Below are positions 17,302-27,608 of a DNA stretch of 43,571 nucleotides, piece after piece. The notes beneath the pieces were generated by a model. That model made no database searches, was not told where the DNA came from, and saw only the letters and a program-made list of their open reading frames with translations. A program made the position numbers and the translations under genes. Source of the stretch: Defluviicoccus sp. GTDB lineage: Bacteria; Pseudomonadota; Alphaproteobacteria; MPNO01. The stretch's first letter is position 1. Every line of letters starts with the position of its first letter. The DNA is taken from NCBI GenBank assembly GCA_022823775.1, contig JAJEHI010000105.1:1-43571 (forward strand), read 5' to 3'.

Positions 17302-18633
17302 TCAGGGACGGCCCAGCGGCAGGGGCTGTTCGGACAGCATCGCGCCGACCACGACCTCGCGGACACGATCCGCGTCGAGGCCGTATTCGGCGATCATGTC
17401 GGCCGAGTCGGCGAGGATGGTGTCGGCGTCCTGCATGATCTTGAGCCGCTTGAAGAGGTCGGGGCGGCAAAGCCCCATGCTCTCGCCGACGAGTTCCATG
17501 AAATTGACCACCTCGAACGGCCAGTCGCGCTCGTGGCTGCAGAGCTCGCGGTGGCAGGCATGGTAGATCCCGGCCAGCGCGTCGACGCCCGCGGCCTCCG
17601 CCGCGGCGAGCTGTTCGGCATGCACGTCTCGCTTGTAGTCCGGCAGCACCGAGAGCGTGTTGCACATATAGCCGACGCGGGGCTGCGCGAGATCGACGAA
17701 TTCCAGACCGGGCACCGCGCGCAGGATGCTCTCGGCGGCCTCGGCGATGCCCGCGACGCCCGGGTGCTCGTGGAGCCCGACCCGCTTCTCCACCCGCCGG
17801 GTCATCAGCGGGCGCAGATCGTCGAGCCTGCTCTCGAGCCAGATCACGAAGGGGGTGAGGTCGAAGGGCGAATCGCCGGCCGCTTCGCGGGTCTCCAGCG
17901 CGGCCTCCCCGAGATGGACCTGGCAGCTCGGACACCAGGACAGCACCTCGTCGACGCCCGACTCCGCGAAGCGGTCGATGGTGCGCCCCGAAAGGTCGGC
18001 GAACTTCTCCAGATCGCCCGAGCGGAACTGGTAGACGCCGCAGCAATAGCTGGGCCCTCCCCGGACGACGTACTCGACCCCGAGGGCCTCCATCACGTCG
18101 AGGCAGAGGAGTGCGATATGCGGCGTCTTGAGCACGTTGCATCCGGTGTAGAAGATCGTTTCCGGGCTCTCCGGCTCGGGCGCGAGCGCGCCGATCTGGC
18201 CCAGCCGCGCCAGCAGGTCGGGCGGAAGCTGGAGGCGGGTAAGGGTCCGCACGCCCCGGCTCATGGCGCCGAACTGCTTGCCGCCGCCGGTCCTGAGATC
18301 GTCGGCCGGGCGCGTGGTGCGCAGGTCGGCGATCCGGGCGAGCGCCAGCATGAAGCGCGGGTTGACGCCGTATTCGCAGGCCGGGATGCAATGCCCGCTG
18401 CCGGTGCAGACTTCCGCCCAGCGGCGCGCGACGTCCGGCCCCTCCCCGGTGCGGATCAGCTCGATGACGCCGGACGCCACGCCTTCGGCGTCGGCCACGT
18501 CGAGCCCGGCCGGCCCCGGCATCGGACAGATCTCCACGCATGCCCCGCACTTGGTGCACGAATCGAGAATGCCGGCGCGTCGCGCATCCAGCGCGGCGAA
18601 GAAATCCTGAGACCTGTCGACACCGTCTGGCAT
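17302..18633 (-). CDS. HdrD/GlcF-like iron-sulfur oxidoreductase
   Basis: The 443-residue protein has an N-terminal ferredoxin region followed by two CCG-type domains, the layout of heterodisulfide-reductase-D/glycolate-oxidase-F-like electron-transfer proteins. The first cluster is complete (C26, C29, C32, C36). The second keeps only C76, C82 and C86, with serine at 79 where cysteine is expected. The first CCG domain is intact (FYTGCN, YCCGVYQF, SWCPSCQ). The second is degenerate (YMCNTL, YHACHRELC). It is divergent from the Rieske operon. It could deliver electrons to a neighbouring oxidoreductase, but this is inference. The start is taken at the ATG 18633; the opening extends farther upstream. 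Confidence 0.8.
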   Translation of the reverse strand: MPDGVDRSQDFFAALDARRAGILDSCTKCGACVEICPMPGPAGLDVADAEGVASGVIELIRTGEGPDVARRWAEVCTGSGHCIPACEYGVNPRFMLALARIADLRTTRPADDLRTGGGKQFGAMSRGVRTLTRLQLPPDLLARLGQIGALAPEPESPETIFYTGCNVLKTPHIALLCLDVMEALGVEYVVRGGPSYCCGVYQFRSGDLEKFADLSGRTIDRFAESGVDEVLSWCPSCQVHLGEAALETREAAGDSPFDLTPFVIWLESRLDDLRPLMTRRVEKRVGLHEHPGVAGIAEAAESILRAVPGLEFVDLAQPRVGYMCNTLSVLPDYKRDVHAEQLAAAEAAGVDALAGIYHACHRELCSHERDWPFEVVNFMELVGESMGLCRPDLFKRLKIMQDADTILADSADMIAEYGLDADRVREVVVGAMLSEQPLPLGRP

Positions 18634-18833
18634 GGGACCGGGGCGTTGTGGGTTCGACCGGGAGACCCTAGACCAAACCCGGTCCGGACGGAACCGTTCC
18701 CACCGTTTCAATCCTTCTGTCATGGTCGGCGGTCGTTTTCGTGGAAGCGGGTCGGGAAATACCTTACCTTGCGGTTCCGCCATCTCGGACAAAGATCGCG
18801 CTATGACCTCCTGCCGCCAAGCGAGCCTTCGAC

Positions 18834-18986
18834 ATGACAGTTGAACGGCAACCCGACGTCGCTTTCGAGCGCTGGCTGCGCGAGGAGGTCGTACCGGTAG
18901 CGATCGCCATGCGGGACGAACCGGGGCGGGCGATCCCGATCGATCGGGTGTTCGATGAACTTCGCCAATTTCATGAGAACCTCTAG
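18834..18986 (+). CDS. Small orphan antitoxin-like protein (PaaA2/stability-determinant type)
   Basis: This 50-residue reading frame is easily overlooked. It reads like short antitoxins of the stability-determinant/PaaA2 kind: FERWLREEVVPVAIAM near residues 11-26, then DEPGRAIPIDRVFDELRQFH near 28-47. Those families share a W-L-R...V helix followed by D-x-x-R-A-I-P-x-D-x-V. A RelE/ParE-type toxin normally follows, but the next frame is the Rieske alpha gene and no toxin was found on either side. It is therefore an orphan or a remnant. A long start of the Rieske gene (18955) would overlap it. Confidence 0.5.
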   Translation: MTVERQPDVAFERWLREEVVPVAIAMRDEPGRAIPIDRVFDELRQFHENL

Positions 18987-19038
18987 GAAACCCGAAGGCA
19001 AACGGACTTCGGAAACCCAAATCGGATCACGGACGCAC

Positions 19039-20286
19039 ATGCCCGAAACCGACACCCTGATCGACTGGCCCGAGGAAGGCGTCGCGCGGGCGCCCTATGC
19101 GGTGTTCTCCGATCCCGATGTCTATGCGGCGGAGATGCGGCGGATCTTTCGCGGGCCGGTCTGGCACTATCTCGGGCTGGAAGCCGAGCTGCCGGAGCCG
19201 GGGGACTACCGTCTGATCGATGTCGGCGACACGCCGGTGATCGTGCTCCGGAATTCGGACGGCGGGCTCAACGCCCTGGTCAACCGCTGCGCCCACAAGG
19301 GGACGATGCTGCTGTTCGAGCCGTTCGGCCGGGTCGACCGGCTGATGTGCATCTACCACAACTGGGCCTACGACCTGGAGGGCTGCCTCAAGAGCGTCCC
19401 CTTCGCGAAAGGAATCAACGGCAAGGGGGGCATGCCGGAGACCTTCGACATGGCGGCGAACGGGCTCGACCGGCTCCGCGTCGAGAGCCTGGGCGGGATA
19501 ATCTTCGGCACGTTCTCGGACGCCACGCCGCCGATCGAGATCTATATCGGCGAGCGGCTGATGGCGAACTACCGCCGCATGACCTCGCGGCCGTTCAAGG
19601 TGCTCGGCTATTACAGCCAGCACCTCGATTCCAACTGGAAGCTCTATTTCGAGAACGCGAGCGACCCCTACCACGCGACGATCCTGCATGCCTGGGCGAC
19701 CCGGCTGAAGCTCAACCGCTTCACCATGGAGGGCGCGATCGAGATGAGCGAGCGGGGCTGGCACCATCTGAGCTGGTCCAAGATGGCGACCGATCAGCAC
19801 GGAGAAGTCTACGAGACAGAGGCGTTCCGGAGCGGCGGGGACGATTTCGACGCGTTCGGCCTCCACGACGCCTCGGTGATCGAGCAGTGGGACGAGTTCG
19901 GCGACGGCATCACCACCGCGATCCAGACCGCGTTTCCCAATTTCGTCCTGCAGCAGATCCACAACGCCATCGCCACCCGCTACCTCGTTCCGCGCGGACC
20001 GGAAGGCTCGGAGCTGGTGTGGACCGTACTGGGCTATGCCGACGACGACGAAGAGCAGACCCGGATCCGGCTCAAGCAGGGCAATTTGATCGGACCGTCG
20101 GGCTACATCTCGCTCGAGGACGGGATGGTAGGCTCGCTGGTGCAGAAGGGGATCGAGGGCGACAAGGACAAGTCCTCGGTGATGGAAATGGCGGGCCGGT
20201 CCATCGAGACCATCGTCAACAGCCGCGCCTCGGAATGCGGCGTGCGCGGCTTCTGGACCGCCTATCGCGAGCTGATGGGCGTCTGA
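19039..20286 (+). CDS. Aromatic-ring-hydroxylating dioxygenase, alpha subunit (second copy)
   Basis: The 415-residue Rieske oxygenase catalytic subunit has [2Fe-2S] ligands C84-x-H86 and C104-x2-H107 (17-residue spacing). The mononuclear-iron motif is D209-x2-H212-x4-H217 in ENASDPYHATILH. It is only distantly similar to the alpha subunit at 4382-5659. The ATG 19039 is chosen because the upstream in-frame start (18955) runs through the small antitoxin-like gene. It begins a plus-strand operon to 27608. No ferredoxin or reductase gene is nearby. An anthranilate/benzoate-type aryl-carboxylate substrate is possible but unproven. Confidence 0.9.
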   Translation: MPETDTLIDWPEEGVARAPYAVFSDPDVYAAEMRRIFRGPVWHYLGLEAELPEPGDYRLIDVGDTPVIVLRNSDGGLNALVNRCAHKGTMLLFEPFGRVDRLMCIYHNWAYDLEGCLKSVPFAKGINGKGGMPETFDMAANGLDRLRVESLGGIIFGTFSDATPPIEIYIGERLMANYRRMTSRPFKVLGYYSQHLDSNWKLYFENASDPYHATILHAWATRLKLNRFTMEGAIEMSERGWHHLSWSKMATDQHGEVYETEAFRSGGDDFDAFGLHDASVIEQWDEFGDGITTAIQTAFPNFVLQQIHNAIATRYLVPRGPEGSELVWTVLGYADDDEEQTRIRLKQGNLIGPSGYISLEDGMVGSLVQKGIEGDKDKSSVMEMAGRSIETIVNSRASECGVRGFWTAYRELMGV

Positions 20287-20802: not shown

Positions 20803-22137
20803 ATGCGCAAGCACCTGATCTGCGGGACGCTGTTCGACGGCCTCGACGAGACCGCGAAGACCGACCGGACGGTCGTCATCGACGACGACCGGATCGCCTA
20901 TGTCGGGCCGTCCGCGGAAGCGCCGGACCAGAGGCCGGGCGAGGCGGTGATCGACCACAGCGGCGACTTCGTCATGCCGGGGCTGATCGACATCCACGTC
21001 CATCTGAGCTACGGCGACGCCCAGGCGAACGAGGACATCGACATATTCTCCCCGCCCGAATACCGGGCGCTGCGCGCGCTCCGCGCGGCGCAGACGGTGA
21101 TGAAGGCGGGCTATACCTCGATCGCCGACCCGGCCTCGACCGGGCGGACGACGGTGGGCGTCCGCGACGCGATCAACGCCGGCATGTTCGACGGGCCGCG
21201 CATCACCACCTCGGGACGGCAGATCACCGCGCGCCAGGGGCTCGCGGACTGGTATCCGACCTGGATCGGCGTCCCCGAGAGCTCGGTCGGCGTGCTGGTG
21301 CGAAACACCGACGAGGCGATCGAGGAGATCCGGATGCAGGTCAAGGATCGGGTCGATTTCGTCAAGATCGCGCTCGACGGGCTGCACCGGAAGGATTCGG
21401 ACGGCGAGCTGATGGCGTGCTTCAACCAGCGCGAGATGGACGCGATGGTCGAGGAAAGCCATCGCCTCGGACGCAAGGTGATCACCCACGCCCGGGGACG
21501 CGAGGCGGTGCTGACCTCGGCCCGCGCCGGCGTCGATGTCATCTTTCACGCATTCGAGATGGACGAGGAAGGACTCGACGCGATGCTCGAGAGCGGCTCG
21601 GTGCTGTCTCCCGCGCTTACCTTCGTCGCCAACACGGCCGAGTTCACCCGCCCCACGGATCCATGCTTCAAGTGGCGGCCGGGCCAGAACCGCCGCGTCA
21701 TCGACGATGCCCGCGAGATGCTGGTCAAAGCGCGGGAGCAGGGCGTCCCCTTCATGGTGGGCACCGATTCCGGGTTCGCGATCACGCCCTATGGAGAGTG
21801 GCACGCGAAGGAGCTGGAGCTCATGGTCGACGATCTCGGCTTCACTCCCGGCGAGGCGCTCAAGGCGACGACGAGCGTCAATTCGGAGCTGCTGCGCGAA
21901 CAGGACGATGTCGGCCGCCTCGTCGAGGGCGCCTATGCCGACATTACGGTCGTCGACGGCAATCCGCTCGACGACATCGCGATCCTGCAGAAGCGTGAGG
22001 CGATCAGAGCCGTCTATCGCGGCGGCGAGCCGGTCGACCTCGCGCCCGAGCCGCGTGCATCGGGCTACCAGTGGGAATACTCCTACCGGCAGTGGAACGA
22101 CATCTACACCCGCGAGCGCGTCGCCGAGCTCCACTGA
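20803..22137 (+). CDS. Amidohydrolase-superfamily metal-dependent hydrolase
   Basis: The 444-residue TIM-barrel amidohydrolase has the binuclear-type site: H65-x-H67 (IDIHVHL), a likely carboxylated lysine K188 (DFVKIALDG), H229 (VITHARG), H249 (IFHAFEMD) and D322 (VGTDSG). This pattern resembles imidazolonepropionase-like/prolidase-like members that cut cyclic amides, lactams or N-acyl bonds. The start follows GGAGGAAG. It sits 28 bases after the Rieske beta gene and overlaps the molybdenum enzyme gene, which suggests it hydrolyses an intermediate of the same pathway. Confidence 0.88.
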   Translation: MRKHLICGTLFDGLDETAKTDRTVVIDDDRIAYVGPSAEAPDQRPGEAVIDHSGDFVMPGLIDIHVHLSYGDAQANEDIDIFSPPEYRALRALRAAQTVMKAGYTSIADPASTGRTTVGVRDAINAGMFDGPRITTSGRQITARQGLADWYPTWIGVPESSVGVLVRNTDEAIEEIRMQVKDRVDFVKIALDGLHRKDSDGELMACFNQREMDAMVEESHRLGRKVITHARGREAVLTSARAGVDVIFHAFEMDEEGLDAMLESGSVLSPALTFVANTAEFTRPTDPCFKWRPGQNRRVIDDAREMLVKAREQGVPFMVGTDSGFAITPYGEWHAKELELMVDDLGFTPGEALKATTSVNSELLREQDDVGRLVEGAYADITVVDGNPLDDIAILQKREAIRAVYRGGEPVDLAPEPRASGYQWEYSYRQWNDIYTRERVAELH

Positions 22138-24473
22138 GTCGCAGGCGTAGCATCGAACATTTCAGGACCATCGGCCGGCCTGTCCGGCGCAAGGAGGACG
22201 CGCGCCTGCTGACCGGCAGGGGCCGTTTCACCGACGACTTCTCCTTGCCCGGCCAGGTCCATGCGGCGATGGTGCGCTCGCCCCATCCGCACGCACGAAT
22301 CGTCTCGGTGGACGCATCCGCCGCCCTGGCGCTGCCCGGCGTGCTGGCCGTCTTCACCGGGGCGGACTGCACGGCGGACGGGCTCGGCCAGCTCGACCAC
22401 AGTCCGCTGCCGAAGACCCGTTTCGATCTCAAGCTGCACGGCCCCGGCGGGTCGGAGGTCTTCGTCGGCGAGCACGCGCTGCTGCCCGCCGACAGGGTGC
22501 GCTATGCGGGCGAGGCGGTCGCGATGGCGGTGGCCGGGACGAAAGCCGCGGCGCAGGACGCGGCAGAGGCGGTCTTCGTCGACTACGAGCCGCTGCCGGC
22601 GGTCACCGACACGGTCGCTGCCGCCGGACCGGGCGCGCCGCTTCTCTGGGACGGCCGCCCGGACAATATCCTCGTCGAGACCTTCTTCGGGGACGAGGCG
22701 GGCACCGAAGCCGCTTTCGCGGAAGCCGCGCATGTCGTCCGCCGCCGGTTCGTCGTCCCCCGAGTCACCGGCTGCCCGCTCGAGCCCCGCGCGGCGCTGG
22801 CGCATTACGACCCGGGGACGGGGCGCTACACGATTTACGCCGGGAGCGGCGGCGCGGTGCGCCAGAAGCGCGAGATCGCCGCGGTCCTGGGCGTCGAGCC
22901 CGACCGGGTACGTATGCACGCCTACGACGTCGGCGGCAATTTCGGAACGCGCAACCGGTGCTACGTGGAATTCCCGCTGGTCGCCTGGGCGTCGCGGAAA
23001 GTCGGGCGGCCGGTCAAGTGCACGGTGGAGCGGAGCGAGGCCCTGATCAGCGATTACCAGGGCCGCGACCTGGTGACCGAGATCGCGCTCGCCTTCGACC
23101 GGGACGGCGGGATACTCGGCCTGCGCGGAGAGAATCTGAGCAATGTCGGCGCGCGCTGCGTCTCCTTGTCGCCGCTGTCAAAAGGGTCGGGAATCGTTAC
23201 CGGCTCCTACCGCGTTCCGGCCGCATGGCTGCGCTCGCGAGCGACCTTCTCCAATACCCCGCCGACCAACGCCTATCGCAGCTCGGGCCGGCCGGAATGC
23301 ATATTCGCGATCGAACGGCTGATCGAAATCGCTGTCGAAGAGCTCGGCATCGACGCGGTCGAGTTGCGGCGAAGGAACCTCGTCGCACCGGAAGAGATGC
23401 CCTACCGCAATCCGGTCGGCATGACCTACGACAGCGGCGAATACGAGAAGAGCCTGGACATGGCGCTCGACCTCTCCGAACCGGACCGGTTCGCGGCGCG
23501 CAGGGAAGAGGCCGAAGCACGCGGAAAGATGCTGGGGCGCGGTGTGGCCCATTACGTCGAGTCCTCGATCGGCACTCCGGTCGAGCAGACCCGGATCCGG
23601 GTCTTTGGCGGCGACCCCCGGGTCGAGGTGGTTATCGGCACGCAGCCGAGCGGCCAGGGCCACGAGACCAGCTTCGCCCAGGTCGCCGCCGAGCGCCTCG
23701 GGGTCGGCGTCGACGAGGTCCGTATCGTCATGGGGGATACGGATATCGTGAAGGTGGGCGGCGGGTCGCATTCGGGCCGCTCGATGCGGATGGCGGGAAC
23801 GGTGATCGCGAAGGGCGTCGATGCTCTGCTGGAGAAGGCAAAGGCGGTCGCGGCCGGCCTGCTCGAAGCGGCGGAGATCGATGTCGCATTCGCCGACGGA
23901 CGGTTCTCGGTCGCGGGCACGGATCGCGCGGTCACGCTTTACGAAGTCGCGGCGGCGGCGGACGAAGGGGTTCTGGGGATCGTGGCGGACAACGAGATGC
24001 ACACCCCGGTCTTCCCCAACGGCTGCCATGTCTGCGAGGTCGAGGTGGATCCGGAAACCGGCGAGGCCGAGATCGTCCGATACGCCGCGGTGGACGACGT
24101 GGGGCGCGCGATCAACCCGCTCATCGTCGACGGTCAAACGCATGGCGGCATCGTCCAGGGGGTCGGCCAGGCGATGTGGGAACTCTGCGTCAACGACCCC
24201 GAGAGCCAGCAGCCGCTCGCCGGCTCCTTCATGGATTACGCCCTGCCGCGCGCGGACCGGTTCCCGTTCTTCGACACCGCGCTCAACGAGGTCCTCTCGC
24301 CGACCAATCCGCTCGGCGTGAAGGCGGGCGGCGAGGGCGGGACGACGCCCGCGCTGGCGGTCATCGTCAACGCCATCGTGGATGCGCTCCGGCCGCTCGG
24401 CGTCGCGGACCTGACGATGCCGGCGACCCCGTTCCGGGTCTGGAGCGCGATTCGGGCGGCCCGCGACGGTTAA
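22071..24473 (+). CDS. Xanthine dehydrogenase-family molybdopterin-binding large subunit
   Basis: The protein is about 800 residues and belongs to the molybdenum hydroxylase large-subunit family (CO dehydrogenase/aldehyde oxidase/xanthine dehydrogenase). Visible motifs are VRRKEDARLLTGRGRFTDD, GGNFGTRNRC, NAYRSSGRPE (molybdenum-site loop), GTQPSGQGHETSF, GGSHSGRSMRM and a C-terminal KAGGEGG with the likely catalytic glutamate. It should hydroxylate an aromatic, N-heteroaromatic or aldehyde carbon using water. The N-terminus is unsettled. The only ordinary starts (GTG 22071 or 22092) lie inside the amidohydrolase gene, and family homology begins near 22150. No [2Fe-2S] or FAD subunit gene is present in the window. 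Confidence 0.85.
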   Translation: MGILLPAVERHLHPRARRRAPLSRRRSIEHFRTIGRPVRRKEDARLLTGRGRFTDDFSLPGQVHAAMVRSPHPHARIVSVDASAALALPGVLAVFTGADCTADGLGQLDHSPLPKTRFDLKLHGPGGSEVFVGEHALLPADRVRYAGEAVAMAVAGTKAAAQDAAEAVFVDYEPLPAVTDTVAAAGPGAPLLWDGRPDNILVETFFGDEAGTEAAFAEAAHVVRRRFVVPRVTGCPLEPRAALAHYDPGTGRYTIYAGSGGAVRQKREIAAVLGVEPDRVRMHAYDVGGNFGTRNRCYVEFPLVAWASRKVGRPVKCTVERSEALISDYQGRDLVTEIALAFDRDGGILGLRGENLSNVGARCVSLSPLSKGSGIVTGSYRVPAAWLRSRATFSNTPPTNAYRSSGRPECIFAIERLIEIAVEELGIDAVELRRRNLVAPEEMPYRNPVGMTYDSGEYEKSLDMALDLSEPDRFAARREEAEARGKMLGRGVAHYVESSIGTPVEQTRIRVFGGDPRVEVVIGTQPSGQGHETSFAQVAAERLGVGVDEVRIVMGDTDIVKVGGGSHSGRSMRMAGTVIAKGVDALLEKAKAVAAGLLEAAEIDVAFADGRFSVAGTDRAVTLYEVAAAADEGVLGIVADNEMHTPVFPNGCHVCEVEVDPETGEAEIVRYAAVDDVGRAINPLIVDGQTHGGIVQGVGQAMWELCVNDPESQQPLAGSFMDYALPRADRFPFFDTALNEVLSPTNPLGVKAGGEGGTTPALAVIVNAIVDALRPLGVADLTMPATPFRVWSAIRAARDG

Positions 24474-24545: not shown

Positions 24546-26744
24546 GTGTTATTCAAATCGCGTTCGGCCAGCCGGCCGTTCCATTTCGGCCCCTTCCCGC
24601 TGGAGACGCTCCCGCGCGACGAGGCGGCGATCGAAGCGGAAGCGGAGCGTCCGCCCGTCGCGGCTCGGGATCGAGAGCGCCCCCGCGGCCAGCTTGTCGA
24701 CTCCCTGGACAAATTTACGCGGCTCTACGCCGAATTCGCCGATGCCGAGGCGGCGAAGGAAAAGGCGCCGGTCTCGGACGACCTCGAACGCCGCTCGGTC
24801 GACATCAAGGGCGTGGGCTATTTCATGGACGCGAGCCAGGTCGGCATTTGCCGGATCCCGGACAACGCTTGGCTCGCGGGTTCGGAGCGTTTCGGCCACG
24901 ACCATGCGATCGTCGTCCTGATCGAGCATTCGCGCGTCGCGGAGGAAGGCAATCTCGCCCGCGACTGGATGCTGCCCGCCGTCGCGGCCAACGCGGAAAT
25001 GCGCGCGGCCGAGATCGCCGCCCTGATCGCCGGCCACATCCGCGTCATGGGCTATGGCGCGCACATGCACGGGATCGACGCGGAACGGCTCGACGCGGAA
25101 CGCCTGACGGTGCTCGCCGGGCTCGCGGTCCGGCGGGGCGACAGCATCGTCAACCCGTTCGTCGGCGAGGCGTTCTCGGTTTGCGTCGTCTCCACTGACT
25201 ATCCCCTGGCCGTCGACAAGCCGCTCGCGGACAAGGCGGTCGGTGCGGATCGAGGGTTCGGCTACTGGCTCGGGCGCAACGGCGCGCGGTCCGGACGCGA
25301 GCGGAACCGGCGCGCGAAGCGTCGCACCGATCTGGGTCCCTTCGCGATGGAGACCGTCAAGCGGGTCGAACGGCCGACGACGCTGATCCTCGATGAGGAG
25401 GTGCCGCGCGTCCCCAAGAGGGCGAGCTTCTTCGAACGCGCGCTGCAGGGCGATCTCGGGGTCAAGGCGCAGATGGCGCGCCGCGTGTTCTCCTTCAAGC
25501 ACCCGCTCTCGCTGAGCCAGCTCAAGGTGATCCGCGGCATGGTGCCCTACCAGGACGGGCCGGTCGCCGAGGTCGAAACCGGCCGCTTCGAGGACGCCGA
25601 GGCCAACACCAGGGCGCTGAAATCGCTCGCCTATTTCCTCGGCACCGACGTCGCCGGGGTGTGCGAGGTGCCGCGCTATGCGTGGTATTCGCACAAGGCA
25701 AACAGCGAAGCGATCGAGCCCTACCACAAATACGCCGTGGTGATGCTGATCGACCAGGGCTTCGACACCATGGAGGGAGCCAGCGGCGACGACTGGATTT
25801 CCGGCGCCCAGTCGATGCGCGCCTATTTGAGGGGCGCCGAAATCGCCTCGGTGATGGCCGACCTCATCCGCGCCAACGGCTTCCCGGCGCGCTCGCAGAC
25901 CAACGCCGACTCGGACGTGCTGCATATCCCGCTGGTTCTCTGGGCCGGGCTGGGCGAGCTGTCGCGCATCGGCGAGCTGATCCTCAACCCGTTCCTCGGG
26001 CCCCGGCTCAAGACCGTGGTGATGACCACCGACATGCCGCTGGTCCCCGACAAGCCGATCGATTTCGGCCTCCAGTATTTCTGCAACCATTGCTTCAAAT
26101 GCGCCCGCGAGTGCCCCTGCGACGCGATCCCGTGGGGCGACAAGGTGATGTTCAACGGCTACGAAATCTGGAAGCCGGATGTCGAACGCTGCACCCGCTA
26201 CCGCCTCACCAACGTCAAGGGGTCGGCCTGCGGGCGCTGCATGAAGACCTGCCCGCTTAACAAGGTCGTGGACGCGGACGGGCCGCTGGTGACCCGGGTG
26301 GCGAGCTGGCTCGGCATCAACGCGATGTTCCTGAAGCCGCTGATGGTCCCTGTCGCGGCATGGCTCGACGACGTTCTCGGCAACGGCAAGCGCAACCCGC
26401 TGAAGAAATGGTGGTTCGACCACGAGGTGGTGAACGGCGTCGCCACCGAGCCCAAGGCGACCAACCGGCGCGACATCGACCCGTCCAAGAAGCTCGACCC
26501 GGCAAATCAGAAGATGGCCTATTACCACGCCAACATGATGCCACCGCCGGACTCCCCCGAGCCCTTCATGGTCGACCGCAAGCAGGCGCTCGCGGCCAAG
26601 GACGCGATCGAGACCCCGGACGAGGCGCGGGCAAGGCGGGGCAACGGCGCACATACGCCCGAGCACTACGTCCCGACCCCGCCGCTCGGCGTCGCCGATG
26701 CCGACAAGGGGATCGTCGGGAGCCCATACGCCGACAAGAACTAG
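24546..26744 (+). CDS. Reductive-dehalogenase-like corrinoid iron-sulfur protein
   Basis: The 732-residue protein lacks a signal peptide and so is cytoplasmic, like aerobic-type RdhA enzymes. Two ferredoxin-type clusters near the C-terminus (C513, C516, C519, C523 and C549, C562, C565, C569) match the RdhA/QueG arrangement. Residues of about 86-230 and 356-508 are homologous to each other (AEIA...IR..G and NPF.G...TD.PL..DKP are shared), so a cobalamin-binding-type domain is duplicated. The first copy carries no clusters. Similar single-chain enzymes reduce halogenated phenols or aromatics using B12, [4Fe-4S] and an external reductase. The GTG start follows gagaggg. It lies 72 bases after the molybdenum gene in the same operon. 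Activity is inferred, not shown. Confidence 0.85.
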   Translation: MLFKSRSASRPFHFGPFPLETLPRDEAAIEAEAERPPVAARDRERPRGQLVDSLDKFTRLYAEFADAEAAKEKAPVSDDLERRSVDIKGVGYFMDASQVGICRIPDNAWLAGSERFGHDHAIVVLIEHSRVAEEGNLARDWMLPAVAANAEMRAAEIAALIAGHIRVMGYGAHMHGIDAERLDAERLTVLAGLAVRRGDSIVNPFVGEAFSVCVVSTDYPLAVDKPLADKAVGADRGFGYWLGRNGARSGRERNRRAKRRTDLGPFAMETVKRVERPTTLILDEEVPRVPKRASFFERALQGDLGVKAQMARRVFSFKHPLSLSQLKVIRGMVPYQDGPVAEVETGRFEDAEANTRALKSLAYFLGTDVAGVCEVPRYAWYSHKANSEAIEPYHKYAVVMLIDQGFDTMEGASGDDWISGAQSMRAYLRGAEIASVMADLIRANGFPARSQTNADSDVLHIPLVLWAGLGELSRIGELILNPFLGPRLKTVVMTTDMPLVPDKPIDFGLQYFCNHCFKCARECPCDAIPWGDKVMFNGYEIWKPDVERCTRYRLTNVKGSACGRCMKTCPLNKVVDADGPLVTRVASWLGINAMFLKPLMVPVAAWLDDVLGNGKRNPLKKWWFDHEVVNGVATEPKATNRRDIDPSKKLDPANQKMAYYHANMMPPPDSPEPFMVDRKQALAAKDAIETPDEARARRGNGAHTPEHYVPTPPLGVADADKGIVGSPYADKN

Positions 26745-26762: not shown

Positions 26763-27608
26763 ATGCCCCTCGTCGACTGCGACGGGCGGAAGATCGGCTA
26801 CGAGGCGGGCGGGCCGGATGACGGTTCCGCGCCCCTGCTGGTGCTTCAGCCGCCGGGCGCGAGCGGCGCGTCGATCTGGCGGTCGGTCGCGGCCCGGCTG
26901 CAAGACCGTTTCCGCACCGTGGCGGTGAACCCCTCGGGCTACGGGGATACCGAACCGTTCGCCGGTCCGGCGCCGATGACGATCCGCGACGAAGCGGCGG
27001 CGACCGCCGCCATCGTCCGCGCCGAGTTGCGGTACACCGCCAGCGAACGCGCCCATTTTGTGGGCCACTCCTATGGCGGCACGATCGGGCTGGCGCTCGC
27101 GTTCGAATGGCCGGAACTGTTGGGCAGGCTGACCCTGCTGGAGCCCGCGCCCTATCCCCTGCTCCGGGACGCGGGCGAGACCGCGTTCGCCGAAGAGATC
27201 GAGGGGCGCAACCGGGATTTCATCGCGACCGTGCGCGGGGGCGGCCTCAACGACGCGGCGATGGAGAGCTATCTCGACTATTTCAACGACCGGCCGGGCT
27301 ACTGGCGAAGCCTGGATGGAGAAACGCGGACGCGAATGCTGGCCCTGTCGGAGCGTCTGGCCATGGGGCTCGACGCGGTCGGGCGGCTGGAGATGAGCCG
27401 GGCGGACCTGGCCGCCATCGCCGCGCCGGTCACCGTGATCCGGGGCGGCGCGACCGACCCGCTGCACGCAAGGCTGTCGGAGCTCGTCGCCGGCGAGATC
27501 CCCGGCGCCGCGGTCACCGACCTGCCGGGAGCCGGTCACATGATGACGCTCACCCACAGCCCGGAGATCGCGGAAATTTTGTCGACTAGCGCCGGCGCGG
27601 GAGCATGA
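26763..27608 (+). CDS. Alpha/beta hydrolase
   Basis: The 281-residue alpha/beta-hydrolase has nucleophile S103 in GHSYGG, acid D232 in GGATDP and base H259 in GAGHMM, in canonical order. There is no signal peptide. Members hydrolyse esters, ring-fission C-C bonds, lactones or halogenated compounds, and the subfamily is not clear. It follows the dehalogenase-like gene by 18 bases, so it likely acts on a product of the same pathway. Its last 23 bases overlap the end of the convergent MFS gene. Confidence 0.87.
   Translation: MPLVDCDGRKIGYEAGGPDDGSAPLLVLQPPGASGASIWRSVAARLQDRFRTVAVNPSGYGDTEPFAGPAPMTIRDEAAATAAIVRAELRYTASERAHFVGHSYGGTIGLALAFEWPELLGRLTLLEPAPYPLLRDAGETAFAEEIEGRNRDFIATVRGGGLNDAAMESYLDYFNDRPGYWRSLDGETRTRMLALSERLAMGLDAVGRLEMSRADLAAIAAPVTVIRGGATDPLHARLSELVAGEIPGAAVTDLPGAGHMMTLTHSPEIAEILSTSAGAGA

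Follow-up and report, generated by a model that had tools for sequence, protein, structure and literature searches.

PceA and other respiratory reductive dehalogenases (RdhAs) have a membrane anchor and form homodimers. Respiratory enzymes, transmembrane forms and two duplicated catabolic subfamilies are among the kinds of RdhA that have been described (PMC10463259). A "vestigial duplication" has already been described in the catabolic RdhAs, in which the first copy mimics the dimer interface of PceA, and the first copy of NpRdhA reportedly does not bind cobalamin (PMC10463259). RdhA homologues without a Tat signal were also reported from marine sediment clusters (PMC3939436).

The window analysed here is a stretch of 43,571 nucleotides from a Defluviicoccus sp. 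genome (GCA_022823775.1, contig JAJEHI010000105.1). It contains an rdhA gene encoding a double-unit protein, whose features are listed in Table 1 with those of the neighbouring genes.

Table 1. Position and supporting evidence of the features at the rdhA locus and of related short proteins encoded in the same genome
Feature	Position	Strand	Evidence or remark
Rieske ring-hydroxylating oxygenase alpha subunit	18955..20286	+	Closest model AndAc, 405.7 bits, below cut-off 750
572-aa Fer4/CCG protein (HdrD/GlcF-like)	17302..19020	-	Divergent from Rieske gene
Amidohydrolase	20803..22137	+	PF01979
Molybdenum hydroxylase large subunit (CoxL/XDH-like)	22071..24473	+	72 bp upstream of rdhA; PF20256, PF02738, PF01315
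rdhA, 732-aa double-unit cytoplasmic reductive dehalogenase (predicted)	24546..26744	+	TIGR02486 above cut-off; NpRdhA full-length, 640 bits; model Z 42 to 4ras
First cobalamin-fold unit (putatively vestigial), residues 7-228	24564..25229	+	No Fe-S motif; Tyr/Lys equivalents E151/S211
Second cobalamin-binding unit (predicted functional), residues 256-505	25311..26060	+	Half-to-half alignment, profile comparison, residue check
S423-M424-R-A-Y427 (NpRdhA S422, M423, Y426: substrate contact, proton donor)	25812..25826	+	
K489 (NpRdhA K488)	26010..26012	+	
Two [4Fe-4S] motifs, cysteines 513/516/519/523 and 549/562/565/569	26082..26252	+	C-terminal part only
R553 (NpRdhA R552, phenol-hydroxyl contact)	26202..26204	+	
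Alpha/beta hydrolase	26763..27608	+	18 bp downstream of rdhA; PF12697
Short RdhA/QueG-like proteins	L087:8392-9471, L088:9841-10899, L089:9352-10329		Below TIGR02486 cut-off

Gene model and family assignment

The rdhA gene starts with a GTG codon, and its orthologues with 90-94% identity share the start residue. Its GC content by codon position (0.67/0.46/0.89) is of the coding type; the opposite strand also has an open frame here, of 1002 aa, which is a mechanical shadow of the high GC. Neither of two respiratory features was found: the N-terminus, read directly, has no Tat-type start, whereas most of the respiratory RdhAs read here start with an SRRDFMK-like stretch, and no RdhB-like gene was present among the recognised neighbours, which encode enzymes and transporters. 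The protein also stops at residue 732 without the C-terminal reductase domain that marks the self-sufficient catabolic subfamily.

The protein scored 184.5 bits with TIGR02486 (reductive dehalogenase; cut-off 160.35), and its best PDB match was NpRdhA (4RAS/6ZXU), over the full length (640 bits, E = 4e-191) with 46% identity overall, 36% in the N unit and 54.5% in the C unit. The AF2 model (pLDDT 82.9, pTM 0.89) aligned with NpRdhA 4ras over 672 residues (Z 42, rmsd 2.3 Å) and with PceA-type enzymes through the second unit alone (model residues 265-625; Z about 22-23). Membership of QueG was rejected, with 18.8 bits against a cut-off of 200 and a fold Z of 12.8, far under that of NpRdhA. The sequence-only reading had proposed a cytoplasmic NpRdhA-like enzyme, to be checked for a cobalamin-type fold in its second half and for a placement apart from QueG; the family score, the absence of a Tat-type start, both structural comparisons and the phylogeny, in which the C unit grouped with NpRdhA and reductase-fused forms (98/98), all bear this out. 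Overall, sequence and model support a predicted function as a cytoplasmic RdhA of the oxygen-tolerant kind, belonging to the catabolic type without a reductase domain.

Internal duplication and catalytic residues

The two halves of the protein aligned with a Smith-Waterman score of 228, compared to 35.7 ± 5.3 in 300 shuffles (maximum 56; z = 36), and a profile-to-profile comparison gave E = 1.8e-35 (probability 99.9%); both units begin with their own RPxHxGxxPxE stretch. These comparisons confirmed the internal repeat noticed in the sequence-only reading, although the limits proposed there, residues 86-230 and 356-508, hold for the core only and the full extent is residues 7-228 and 256-505. 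The same reading was right in placing the [4Fe-4S] motifs in the C-terminal half alone, where all eight cysteines lie, and in naming a similar duplication for NpRdhA (PMC10463259). The doubled architecture is thus already known, including from a crystal structure, and a vestigial duplication of the cobalamin core, one of the marks of catabolic (NpRdhA-type) RdhAs in PMC10463259, was found in the window protein.

Nine of the 11 NpRdhA active-site positions checked, with roles taken from PMC7565698, are identical in the window protein (F290, F291, F310, S422, M423, Y426, N452, K488 and R552 in NpRdhA numbering), while A419 is changed to G and P311 to S. Position 419 is also G in most relatives, so that the pocket is slightly unlike that of NpRdhA. 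The Tyr, Lys and Arg whose conservation was to be checked are retained in the C-terminal half, as are the eight Fe-S cysteines, which lie in an extension of the second unit. Among 55 clade members, there is little or no variation at the proton-donor Tyr, at its Lys or at the Ser and Arg contacting the substrate hydroxyl, and the equivalents of NpRdhA S422, K488 and R552 were kept, together with the hydrophobic pocket, in 53-55 members. In the first unit, the Tyr and Lys positions are occupied by E151 and S211, respectively, and none of the first units among 40 double-unit proteins had a Tyr or Lys at the catalytic position. The first copy had been read as either a pseudo-domain or a second ligand site; these substitutions, the lack of an Fe-S motif and the description of NpRdhA (PMC10463259) favour the pseudo-domain over the ligand site.

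Gene neighbourhood

Besides the genes immediately flanking rdhA, the window encodes a Fer4/CCG protein that is a possible candidate electron carrier, and farther out amidases and TRAP transporter genes. No gene for a small or FAD subunit of the molybdenum hydroxylase was recognised near 22071-24473. These surroundings were common to the loci with 90-94% identity (Defluviicoccus-labelled MAGs L006-L008) and not to the rest of the clade. The oxygenase operon of the sequence-only reading therefore stands as far as the presence of Rieske and molybdenum hydroxylase genes is concerned, but it is shared with close relatives only and says little on the function of the family. As the neighbouring genes are not conserved beyond these relatives, the context supports an aromatic-catabolism setting without naming a substrate. 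Concerning plasmid records, the best matches covered the molybdenum hydroxylase gene only. The genome of the window encodes CobS, from which it can probably complete a cobamide.

Distribution of double-unit RdhAs

In a scan of 84,980 genomes, at least 580 relatives were found among at least 594 matching stretches. The double-unit clade of the window protein is large, belongs to uncultivated Proteobacteria, lies in varied neighbourhoods and is uncharacterised, as far as found. A conserved operon partner was rejected, the commonest neighbour family accounting for only 4 of the 93 scanned neighbours. In four loci with Rhizobiales-type MAG labels (L015, L021, L022 and L028), the double-unit rdhA adjoins a housekeeping block including recN, bamD, lpxC and ftsZ, a position that suggests vertical inheritance there. 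In a sample of 369 gammaproteobacterial genomes, all RdhAs found were double-unit or reductase-fused.

In L118 (G215:C14), the frame of a double-unit RdhA continues without a stop into what resembles the C-terminal part of an AMP-dependent acyl-CoA ligase; judged by eye only, this frame of 1204+ aa looks like a gene fusion. A 3792-bp contig with a Dehalococcoidia label (L016) encodes an RdhA that shares 65% identity with the proteobacterial one of the window, which is possibly a binning error rather than a transfer.

Single-unit cytoplasmic RdhAs

The genome of the window also encodes a single-unit RdhA of 444 aa (L086; G000:C126:58986-60317, or L086:8983-10317 on the minus strand), which scored 201.5 bits with TIGR02486, has no Tat-type start, has its catalytic residues and eight cysteines intact, and is 53.5% identical to the C unit of the window protein. 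Its gene adjoins an Amidohydro_2 gene, and genes for a CoA-transferase III and an enoyl-CoA hydratase lie downstream. Four other genomes of the genus encode orthologues with 90-95% identity, and relatives with 72-75% identity were found in a second family of the order. Single-unit cytoplasmic RdhAs of ~445 aa that lack a Tat signal and keep the catalytic residues also occur in several other families of the Alphaproteobacteria. An interpretation as halves of a split gene was rejected, no separate N-unit ORF being present nearby. The AF2 model of the single-unit protein was poor (pLDDT 58.7) and was excluded as evidence. Three more short RdhA/QueG-like proteins (325-359 aa) are encoded in the same genome (Table 1).

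A third family (L160-L164) has two single-unit RdhA genes in tandem, with a stop/start overlap of 4 bp. In L160 and L161, the pair directly follows the TRAP genes DctP-DctQ-DctM, and it is also placed after TRAP genes in the other loci; a ring-hydroxylating dioxygenase, guessed from gene lengths, was rejected as these neighbours are actually DctQ/DctM. A gentisate 1,2-dioxygenase gene follows the pair in L161 (TIGR02272, 458.6 vs 442.1 bits) and L163 and lies two genes further on in L162, and no such gene was recognised beside the pair of L160. In L163, the first of the two RdhA genes is fragmented. A role of one protein of the pair as a dead pseudo-subunit was also rejected, as both have Tyr, Lys, Arg and Ser in place along with the eight cysteines. 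The gene order at these loci suggests that an aromatic acid is imported, loses its halogen or halogens by reduction and undergoes gentisate ring cleavage. Another single-unit gene (L172) adjoins genes encoding a LigB-type ring-opening dioxygenase and an HpaB hydroxylase.

In the open-access literature searched, no account of single-unit cytoplasmic NpRdhA relatives or of tandem pairs was found. T7RdhA was described as PceA-like (PMC10008544). The single-unit RdhAs, some of them encoded as overlapping gene pairs, offer smaller enzymes for biochemistry.

Phylogeny and origin of the duplication

The outgroup consisted of eleven respiratory RdhAs, most with Tat starts, from genomes drawn around a Dehalococcoidia-labelled record. 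In the rooted tree, all double-unit and reductase-fused proteins formed one clade (98/98), with the single-unit proteins outside. The single-unit proteins may be either a grade or a sister group: a single clade of them was not rejected (AU p = 0.12), and the outgroup branches were long. When the units were treated separately, the first units grouped together (100), as did the second units (96), and the sub-clades of the two groups matched, a pattern that points to one ancient duplication.

With a profile of the first units, the single-unit proteins scored about 144-180 bits, compared to about 116-134 bits for the tested second units of double proteins, as expected if the single-unit proteins are nearer to the pre-duplication state; the same difference could arise if the second units had changed faster. 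As the outgroup proteins are single-unit too, the single-unit state would be the simpler assumption for the ancestor, and the undoubled relative in the genome of the window may show the form of the family before doubling. The case is evenly balanced for a scenario in which single-unit RdhAs such as L086 are the surviving unduplicated form of the catabolic dehalogenases and the doubling took place once, by tandem duplication and fusion, the first copy then losing its active site; the tandem pairs would here act as homo- or heterodimers, removing halogens from gentisate- or salicylate-like acids ahead of ring cleavage. In the literature, the vestigial domain is viewed as a built-in dimer partner, and the unduplicated cytoplasmic relatives allow a direct test of this view.

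Proposed function and alternative explanations

The window enzyme is very probably a soluble, monomeric dehalogenase of the oxygen-tolerant type, acting on ortho-halogenated phenolics in the cytoplasm within aromatic catabolism. This assignment builds on the sequence, residue conservation and fold of the window protein and on its duplication, of probable single origin, and takes from NpRdhA, by analogy, the mechanism, the binding of cobalamin, the type of substrate, the monomeric state and the vestigial role. Two electrons would reach a base-off cobalamin in the second unit by way of the two [4Fe-4S] clusters, and would come from a separate donor because rdhA has no fused reductase. The halogen would be bound on the cobalt, with the substrate hydroxyl held by S423, K489 and R553, and Y427 would give a proton to the ring carbon. 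The degenerate first unit, its cobalamin binding lost, would cover the surface through which two PceA subunits pair. We only infer the actual substrate, and a single pathway joining the Rieske oxygenase, the hydrolase and the molybdenum hydroxylase to rdhA.

A different substrate is the alternative deserving most attention, although it appears rather unlikely: the protein may be a true RdhA acting on compounds other than ortho-halophenols, for example a halogenated natural product of the habitat. The clade is separate from NpRdhA, its neighbourhoods are highly varied and the changed pocket positions 311 and 419 would fit such a shift, but the hydroxyl-binding residues and hydrophobic pocket are kept across nearly the whole clade and every characterised catabolic RdhA takes ortho-halophenols (PMC10463259). 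The faster change of the N units relative to the C units (see the identities to NpRdhA above), the absence of Tyr, Lys and Ser equivalents from all scored N units and the reported inability of the NpRdhA copy to bind cobalamin (PMC10463259) make it improbable that the first unit, rather than being vestigial, binds a further ligand, be it a second corrinoid, a flavin or an additional substrate. Such binding would agree with the preserved fold, with some N-unit positions being conserved across 25 proteins and with distant CblD and FMN-nitroreductase folds aligning to residues 3-222 (Z 5-7), nitroreductase-level Z values being common by chance. Even less credible is an assignment to epoxyqueuosine reductase or some other family of class III cobalamin enzymes, or a reduction of non-halogenated substrates; the protein has the QueG fold in common and a weak QueG score, yet this score is far under the cut-off, NpRdhA is much nearer in both sequence and structure, and the Ser/Lys/Arg triad with which NpRdhA binds its substrate is kept. 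As predicted dehalogenases of the oxygen-tolerant type, the members of the clade bear on the aerobic turnover of brominated and chlorinated aromatics.

Comparison with known systems

Compared to PceA and other respiratory RdhAs, the window protein has the same cobalamin/[4Fe-4S] catalytic unit, whereas the respiratory enzymes are single-unit and most of those read here have a Tat signal. QueG shares the class III cobalamin fold and differs by the family cut-off and the much lower structural score. The self-sufficient catabolic enzymes BhbA and JtRdhA resemble the window protein in their double unit and catalytic residues, and its clade (98/98) takes in the reductase-fused forms, but these are about 1060-1110 aa long with a C-terminal reductase, which the window protein lacks. 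L086 has the same catalytic residues and cysteines and differs in having no first unit. NpRdhA, from Nitratireductor pacificus pht-3B (4RAS, 6ZXU, 6ZXX, 6ZY1), has ferredoxin and reductase neighbours (PMC10463259), whereas none were recognised beside the window rdhA and no ferredoxin reductase of this kind was recognised in the window. The window protein further differs from NpRdhA by the moderate overall identity, the separate clade, the two pocket substitutions and a longer C-terminal tail, and is like it in length, duplication, vestigial first unit, two [4Fe-4S] clusters and active-site residues, as well as in having neither a Tat signal nor a fused reductase.
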